Source: Owenia fusiformis
Taxonomy: Eukaryota > Annelida > Polychaeta > Sabellida > Oweniidae
Assembly (NCBI GenBank): GCA_903813345.2
Contig: CAIIXF020000011.1
Span: 10,138,842-10,202,841 of the forward strand
Reading direction: 5' to 3'
DNA: 64,000 bases
Part shown: positions 55,685-56,160 of the stretch, in pieces
Position numbering within the stretch: the stretch's first letter is position 1
How the letters are laid out: every line of letters begins with the position of its first letter
Notes under the pieces: generated by a model
Told to the model about the DNA's origin: nothing
The model's input: only the letters and a program-made list of their open reading frames with translations
Databases searched by the model: none
Program-made: the position numbers and the translations under genes

Positions 55685-56073
55685 AGATTTATCTTCACCT
55701 TCATTTACCAAGTTCTATGTTCATCTTCATTCACCAAGATCTATGTTAACCTTCATTGAACAAGATCTATGTTCACCTTCTTTTACCAAGATCTATGTTC
55801 ACCTTCTTTTGCCAAGATCTATGTTCCATCTTCATTCACCAAGATCTATGTTAACCTTCATTTACCAAGATCTATGTTCACCTTCTTTTACCAAGATCTA
55901 TGTTAACCTTCATTGAACAAGATCTATGTTCACCTTCTCTTACCAAGATCTATGTTCATCTTCATTTACCAAGTTCTATGTTCATCTTCATTTACCAAGA
56001 TCTATGTTCATCTTCATTTACCAAGTTCTATGTTCATCTTCATTTACCAAGATTTATCTTCACCTTCATTTAC
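55685..56073 (-). repeat. 26-bp minisatellite copied from an ATM splice donor, ~15 copies
   Basis: The unit TTCATTTACCAAGATCTATG+TTCACC repeats with a 26-bp period up to the last intronic base of the ATM exon at 56074. The exon/intron junction itself (TTCATTTACCTAGATCTATG+TGGACC) is one more, slightly different unit. On the gene's strand each repeat thus carries a donor-like TTG|GTAAATGAA. The 71- and 66-residue ORFs on the plus strand are repeat products. Confidence 0.9.
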
Positions 56074-56160
56074 CTAGATCTATGTGGACCAACTCAGCTG
56101 TGTGTCTATCTATGAGGATATTCTGAACGTGCCGATCCCCTAGTCCTAAAATGTAGCCCA
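56074..56160 (-). CDS. ATM: ATM/Tel1 kinase exon (catalytic loop)
   Basis: An 87-nt minus-strand exon with acceptor …TGTTCCAG before 56160 and donor GTAAAT at 56068-56073. It encodes [18 protein letters not shown] and continues [14 protein letters not shown] is the catalytic loop of PI3K-like kinases (Asp as catalytic base, Asn for magnesium), and HIDL(G) starts the activation loop. The first Val and last Gly codons are split in phase with the neighbouring exons at 60962-61118 and 53516-53694. All catalytic residues are kept, so the gene looks functional here. Confidence 0.95.

Follow-up and report, generated by a model that had tools for sequence, protein, structure and literature searches.

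A minisatellite of exon-intron junction copies in the ATM gene of Owenia fusiformis, with similar boundary arrays in other sampled genes of the genome

The stretch of DNA analysed here, which we call the window, comprises 64,000 nucleotides of the annelid Owenia fusiformis (contig CAIIXF020000011.1, hereafter C11; C11:10138842-10202841) and belongs to the assembly that we searched, of 498,259,871 bases in 525 contigs. Exons in the window were mapped by spliced alignment of protein to genome, using just GT/AG signals and protein similarity (Table 1), and the authentic donor of the intron at issue was picked by its fit to the human protein. When translated, the two exons that flank this intron match human ATM over 88 amino acids with an E value of 5e-45, with Tel1, SMG1 and ATR ranking lower, and no stop codon interrupts the frame at the authentic junction 56073/53694. 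This agrees with the earlier note on the stretch, which had named ATM as the host gene. The last ATM exon lies outside the window, and the gene still ends in FATC.

Table 1. Features of the ATM locus, in positions of the window
Feature	Position	Strand	Basis
ATM exon, ends ATNSI, precedes the array-bearing exon	60962..61106	-	spliced alignment
ATM kinase-domain exon, 87 nt	56074..56160	-	spliced alignment; exon pair matched to human ATM
Authentic donor TAG/GTAAATGAA, G of GT at 56073	56065..56076	-	phase-1 junction restoring the conserved protein
Intron, 2379 bp, with the array at its 5' end	53695..56073	-	spliced alignment
Next ATM exon	53516..53694	-	human ATM match, spliced alignment
Following ATM exon (VLLYDPLYAWSISPQKAQ...), donor side uncertain	35474..35557	-	spliced alignment
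ATM piece, poorly conserved	10859..10916	-	spliced alignment
15 in-register array units	55695..56085	-	TRF, unit walk, genome pattern search (15/15 matches here)
Partial 16th unit, 12 nt, AGATAAATCTTG	55683..55694	-	unit walk
Strongest decoy donor TTG/GTAAGA, G of GT at 55943	55938..55946	-	33-donor model
Interspersed repeat adjoining the distal array end	55201..55680		at least 172 genome matches

Tandem arrays with a period of at least 10 make up 12.8% of the window, and several other repeats in and around the gene were noted. A perfect tandem duplication of 135 bp (100% matches in TRF) occupies 63419-63690 and is possibly recent or polymorphic. By eye, a look-alike 53-bp unit recurs in two long arrays of opposite orientation that lie 8 kb apart (18458-19184 and 27141-28160), both of them in the interval from the 35-kb to the 11-kb ATM exon. 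An interspersed element that contains a 120-bp tandem unit (TACTGAAATCACTGGCTGGG...) was likewise seen by eye three times, at 32787-33172, 39565-39829 and approximately 56400-56620. Outside the window, at a distance of 8 kb, an array of 91 bp x 3.7 (C11:10130723-10130393) copies the ATM coding end (FATC ...PGWQPYL stop) into the 3' flank. Because this array repeats the coding end, a second FATC match appears in the genome.

The array at the start of the 2379-bp intron is reported by TRF as 26 bp x 15.7 copies with 87% matches and a score of 597, at 55678-56085. A walk along the gene strand divides it into 15 in-register units that run from 56085 down to 55695 (-), all of 26 bp except for unit 10 (27 bp), followed by the partial unit listed in the table. 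The minisatellite of about 15 units that had been described from the sequence is therefore real; it does not, as had been thought, reach 56160, since it ends at 56085 and 56086-56160 is ordinary exon. Unit 1 (56085-56060) consists of the last 12 nt of the ATM exon and the first 14 nt of the intron, ACATAGATCTAG/GTAAATGAAGGTGA, and 14 further copies follow it. The array is thus composed of tandem units that span an exon-intron boundary, the structure by which the 'mirages' of amphioxus, discussed below, are recognised.

Comparison of the units revealed a closer relationship to the authentic junction than the roughly three differences per unit proposed earlier. The consensus unit matches the junction at 25 of 26 positions, with a change from A to T at donor position -2 as the sole difference, and this T is present in 14/14 extra copies. 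Each of the 15 units in turn departs from the consensus at 1-3 positions. The donor dinucleotide is GT in 12 units, GC in 1 and TT in 2, so that GT is lost in 3 of the 14 extra copies, and the exact hexamer GTAAAT, which the earlier note had placed in every unit, is found in 7/15. Splice signals are therefore kept in many, not all, of the units (GT 12/15), as in mirages. Three pairs of units are identical (7 and 13, 8 and 12, 3 and 5), which is the usual mark of internal turnover. Both ends of the array share a 27-nt identical stretch, GGTAAATGAAGGTGAAGATAAATCTTG, such that unit 15 and the partial 16th unit mirror units 1-2.

Beyond the distal end of the array lies the interspersed repeat of Table 1, and several of its genomic matches stop at query position 480-481, which corresponds to 55680-55681 of the window; this dispersed repeat is itself built of shorter repeated blocks. 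Two other identities for the array were considered and rejected. As a structured RNA it has an ordinary fold (z -1.23, with 13 of 100 shuffles folding at least equally well), and no Rfam family was found at the gathering threshold in 53000-57000. As a protein-coding repeat of the + strand, judged from the list of open reading frames, it shows several open frames in which only the repeat itself is seen.

To what extent the unit is confined to this place was determined across the whole assembly. With up to three mismatches allowed, the unit occurs 15 times in 498 Mb, and all 15 occurrences are inside the ATM array, whereas a control pattern read backward occurs 0 times. A DNA search with 55685-56085 returned the self-match only; since such a search skips very common words, the pattern search is the stronger test of locality. 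The array is thus a local repeat rather than a dispersed one, which is again a property of mirages. The earlier note had held that the array copies the end of the ATM exon together with its donor, and that matching arrays at unrelated loci would speak against this origin. Neither the pattern search nor the DNA search found such an array anywhere in the genome, and the unit is found in this array only. The local origin of the ATM array is therefore well supported.

We next consider how donor-like the extra copies are. A 33-donor model, derived from introns of VCP, two EF2 genes and ATM of this genome with the target junction excluded, scores the authentic donor at 6.04 and the 11 GT decoys at 2.97-6.61. 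Only the GT decoy at 55943 lies above the authentic donor (6.61 vs 6.04). A human donor matrix puts the two level, at 3.73 and 3.72, respectively. With an 83-donor model from which 7 array donors were excluded, 0/11 GT decoys reach the authentic score, decoy 55943 included, and 11/11 exceed the 10th percentile of mapped donors. The 9-mer TTG/GTAAGA of decoy 55943 is among the mapped donors of each EF2 gene, and TTG before GT is ordinary in this genome: it precedes 5/31 donors of VCP and the two EF2 genes and 7/90 donors overall, array junctions included. In a duplex model, pairing with U1 gives -9.3 kcal/mol for the authentic donor, -5.3 to -8.0 for the GT decoys and -8.0 to 0 for all extra copies. 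A second donor-like word, AAG/GTGAAC or AAG/GTGAAG, is present in 5/14 extra units and beside the authentic donor. The models thus mark the decoys as credible donor sites that would mostly be second best, and a splicing leak from them is plausible on these scores.

The density of such sites is consistent with the earlier description of an array of decoy donors: sites that score at least 4 number 23.8 per kb in the array, compared with 2.5 in the rest of the same intron and 0.59 in other ATM introns. The earlier note had proposed scoring each unit with a 5' splice-site model. The 11 GT decoys are donor-like, and just one of them (55943) beats the authentic donor, in the 33-donor model only. Higher scores than that of the authentic donor are also reached by two sites elsewhere in the array intron, 54086 and 53840 (7.43 vs 6.04 in the 33-donor model), and score alone is therefore no predictor of use.

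What use of a decoy would mean for the protein can be read directly from the intron. All 21 decoy sites tested, as well as full intron retention, stop at the same codon, HIDLGK-stop, since translation into the intron reads GGT AAA TGA. As a result of this identical early stop, the 26-nt unit length is irrelevant to the protein, and the frameshifting segments of 26 nt that the earlier note considered possible would give one early stop rather than a set of frameshifted proteins. The possible outputs of the gene, as predicted from the sequence, would be normal ATM or one truncated form without the remaining kinase domain and FATC. Truncated mRNAs that bear such a stop are likely destroyed. In regulated, NMD-linked unproductive splicing an alternative donor leads to a premature stop, and use of any of the 21/21 sites tested would have this consequence.

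To place the ATM array in the context of its genome, we examined 90 introns from 12 loci, a sample that consists of conserved genes with a known human protein and is not random. It includes 31 introns of VCP and the two EF2 genes, 3 of 5 ATM introns, and 56 of 59 introns of HSP90, GNB1, RACK1, CCT2, ATP5B, two eIF4A-family genes and enolase; the label EIF4A3 for one of the eIF4A-family genes is our own. Left out were HSP90-247, ENO-82 and EIF4A-70, which have doubtful boundaries, and the two ATM introns with poorly conserved ends. Using TRF and inspection of the copies, we identified boundary arrays in 9/90 introns and 5/12 loci, namely VCP-494, ATM-214, CCT2-111, CCT2-250, CCT2-364, CCT2-479, EIF4A3-75, EIF4A3-284 and ENO-223. 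The sample is clumped, with CCT2 supplying 4 of the 9. The acceptor of EIF4A3-191 was excluded from the nine, as its copy reads AT rather than AG, and ENO-126, with one acceptor copy only, was not counted as an array. ATM is therefore not special among genes, since boundary arrays are also present in VCP, CCT2, an eIF4A-family gene and enolase. A base-rate test with 26-mers had singled out ATM alone among 68 boundaries; it missed the VCP array, in which the donor is copied and the exon is not, and which was found by TRF.

Several of these arrays are more extensive than that of ATM or differ from it in their signals. For example, CCT2-479, the intron after amino acid 479 (C11:119900-142800), has a 105-bp unit with approximately 66 nt of exon and a strong donor, in 48 copies beyond the authentic one, of which 42 carry the authentic TAG/GTAAGT and 6 carry TAG/GTAAGA. 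Its units also hold the word TACTACAG, which could serve as an acceptor. Similarly, in CCT2-250 the authentic donor is present in 24/24 copies. The idea that weakened decoys are a precondition for tolerance, true in ATM, was consequently abandoned, given that 42/48 copies in CCT2-479 and 24/24 in CCT2-250 equal the authentic donor. Two cases are weaker. In VCP-494, the intron after amino acid 494 with its donor at C1:2675788, 21-bp units GTATGTAATGTCACATTTCTA start from exactly donor +1, so that the donor hexamer is repeated and the exon is not; in CCT2-111 the exon is repeated and the donors are mostly degenerate. At the other kind of boundary, the enolase intron before amino acid 223 (ENO-223; C1:23325500-23332700) has, upstream of its acceptor junction, 14 copies of that junction arranged as 87-bp units and identical at 29 or 30 of 30 positions. 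Were the first three of these used as acceptors, the frame would stay open, with 29 amino acids added per unit. Indeed, the first three decoys leave the frame open in each of the two acceptor arrays, and those in each of five donor arrays (ATM included; VCP-494 and CCT2-111 stood outside this test) all bring a stop.

The frequency of these arrays was compared with that expected of intronic positions in general. Within the 90 introns, 16.4% of intronic bases are in arrays, and TRF arrays touch 7/90 donors and 3/90 acceptors, as compared to 1048/9000 random intronic positions. A count made without TRF, of junctions with at least two further 30-nt copies in their intron, gave 5/90 donors and 2/90 acceptors against 134/1800 random intronic 30-mers, and in the first 34 introns, at 15/20 identity, 2/34 donors stood against 46/1020 control positions. 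Special targeting of splice junctions was rejected on these grounds, since random intronic places are touched at least equally often in the larger sample. That junctions are not touched more than other intronic places suggests random minisatellite birth that is tolerated at exon edges. Moreover, the presence of arrays at several kinds of coding edge is better fitted by random birth together with protection of the coding copy than by a splicing device.

The copies also share an orientation relative to the exon. At 24/30 identity, 9/9 boundaries with any copy have their junction copies on the intron side only, and 2 kb of sequence on the exon side gave 0. Among the donors, the protein-compatible one is therefore the 5'-most, and among the acceptors the 3'-most, which in both cases yields the shortest exon. 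Pairing of the nearest acceptor and donor through exon definition would explain the choice at both kinds of boundary, as far as this can be judged from the arrangement of the copies. Taken as a whole, we would give even odds to a general statement in two parts: that about one in ten of the sampled conserved-gene introns begins or ends in an array of its own junction, as observed in 9/90, and that splicing may use the shortest-exon copy only, with nearest-pair exon definition overriding equal sites closer to the opposite intron end.

Junction minisatellites are a known kind of structure. In amphioxus, mirages are minisatellite-like tandem copies of exon-intron boundaries, described in Adh3 (units of 10-72 bp) and then in globins (PMC3087553), and the genes that carry them are Adh3, the globins BflGb6 and BflGb9, troponin C and PGBD5 (PMC3087553, PMC3902484). 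There, AG/GT signals are present in many, not all, units, both 5' and 3' boundaries are affected, and RT-PCR suggests undisturbed splicing (PMC3087553, PMC3902484). The ATM array has the same build, with tandem junction copies and partly kept signals; the mirages differ in that they belong to cephalochordate genes in which splicing and length instability were examined. The same work cites Rogers and later studies on the gain of introns through duplicated AGGT proto-splice sites (PMC3087553). In that process splice signals are duplicated inside a gene, as in the ATM array, but the ATM copies sit in an existing intron and no new intron is seen.

In humans, the 31-bp VNTR of CBS is reported to affect splicing. 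By its notation, c.1444_1467+7(16_21), this VNTR comprises 24 exonic and 7 intronic nt and has 16-21 repeats across a donor, as given in PMC2630376; by the same notation its build is that of the ATM array, although it concerns one human gene, with length alleles. A second human case from the same source is CBS c.844_845ins68, a duplicated intron-exon junction where splicing has a strong preference for the more distal copy and the mRNA comes out normal (PMC2630376). This is in line with the shortest-exon rule, with the difference that it is one duplication on the 3' splice-site side and the ATM case is a donor array. Among annelids, the metallothionein genes of Lumbricus rubellus and Eisenia fetida have first-intron minisatellites, and duplications of the fourth exon are said to be absent from the final transcript (PMC12783039). 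These are annelid intronic minisatellites like the ATM array, but junction-copying arrays are not described in the accessible text of that paper. We found no report of junction arrays in spiralians in the open-licence literature searched, which is weak evidence of absence. What is new is the context, namely a genome that is not amphioxus and in which such arrays are frequent in the sample.

The term mirage originates from cephalochordates, a matter of origin of the term rather than of structure, and the host in our case appears to be of a different lineage. Eleven homeodomain matches lie within C1:17.97-18.47 Mb, and one Hox homeodomain on this contig is followed by KLTGP, which we take to be the Lox5 peptide of spiralians. 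Two other homeodomains on C1 resemble Lox2 and Lox4. These Hox markers suggest that the host is a spiralian rather than an amphioxus. An observation was also made in this region at C1:17970300-17971300, where two different posterior-Hox-like homeodomain exons are separated by 351 bp. Over 300 nt they are approximately 55% identical in DNA, and each has an acceptor-like site and a stop codon of its own; this pair may possibly represent alternative last exons with different homeodomains. The genome paper of Owenia fusiformis describes a 505.8-Mb assembly with 12 scaffolds of chromosome scale and places a Hox cluster on chromosome 1, and its accessible text was found to hold no mention of junction arrays (PMC9977687).

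The mode of birth of the ATM array, which we infer, would be a tandem duplication of DNA straddling the exon-intron junction. The likely seed is a pair of similar 12-mers at a distance of 26 bp, of which ACATAGATCTAG closes the exon and AGATAAATCTTG is intronic, and this seed-pair model is proposed because the array ends match. The mirrored ends suggest a state before expansion of exon...ATCTAG/GTAAATGAAGGTGAAGATAAATCTTGAT with the two 12-mers in place, and they fit end units that escaped homogenisation; the basis of the model is this single array. Slippage or unequal exchange between the 12-mers would then have produced hybrid units with TTG before the donor, followed by expansion within the intron. 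The coding copy would be held by selection on the protein and the extra copies would drift as intron. As to donor choice, the most likely choice is the exon-proximal donor (56073), since it is paired by exon definition with the upstream acceptor across a short exon of 87 nt, and since it has the best U1 pairing among the donor copies. With such a choice the decoys would be mostly silent, and any leak would yield an mRNA that ends in HIDLGK-stop with the rest of the kinase domain lost. We infer neutrality, and we assign a probability of roughly three in four to the reading of the ATM array as a neutral junction minisatellite, or mirage, with decoys that are mostly ignored.

The same data were weighed against readings in which the decoys have a function. 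In one of these, regulated unproductive splicing, decoys would be partly used, the stop-bearing mRNAs would be degraded and the length of the array would tune the level of ATM. Such a switch would need an immediate stop, as found at 21/21 decoy sites, and the 11 GT decoys are all within the range of mapped donors, at a density of donor-like sites far higher than in other ATM introns. Nearly all decoys score below the authentic donor, however, and GT is lost in 3/14. Furthermore, similar arrays in CCT2, VCP, the eIF4A-family gene and enolase, no commoner than random intronic arrays, give no suggestion of a role in ATM, and amphioxus mirages are reported without disturbed splicing (PMC3087553, PMC3902484). 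Regulation via the decoys is thus unlikely, with perhaps an outside chance in its favour. Considerably less probable still is a back-up or recruiting array, in which uncut U1-binding sites would make splicing at this junction more faithful or protect the intron against early polyadenylation. There is no sign of selection for such sites, given that 3/14 copies are without GT and 14/14 have the weaker T at -2, and junctions are not preferred places for arrays; these points outweigh the many U1-pairing sites within 390 bp and the occurrence of AAG/GTGAAC or AAG/GTGAAG in 5/14 extra units and next to the authentic donor.

Two further readings concern the nature of the array itself, and both seem to us highly improbable. 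With 12.8% of the window in tandem arrays of period at least 10, arrays near exons are expected, and an unrelated intronic satellite might match the exon by chance, or the assembly might be at fault. Against chance, the exon end itself is unit 1, at 25/26 to the consensus, and the unit is found nowhere else; against an artefact, the units differ from one another, unlike a simple assembly duplication. The array might alternatively represent intron gain under way, with units of exon end and donor supplying the material for an additional exon or a displaced junction, a model proposed for the amphioxus globins in PMC3087553 and one for which the donor and TACTACAG word within the CCT2-479 units could be cited. 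The ATM units, by contrast, have no acceptor-like site by eye, a stop follows the donor within three codons, and the units are diverging. A neutral junction minisatellite, born locally and tolerated beside a protected coding copy, is the reading that we prefer to all of these.

On its own the ATM array is a curiosity, and its interest derives from the frequency of such arrays in the sampled genome of an organism other than amphioxus. Junction minisatellites have been described in amphioxus and in human CBS, and our sample suggests that they are frequent in an annelid genome, where they occur in housekeeping genes. The length of these arrays could vary among individuals, as it does in amphioxus and human CBS, and the arrays may mislead gene predictors. 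The genome would thereby offer a natural laboratory for asking, without engineering, which of dozens of near-identical donors or acceptors is used, and why.
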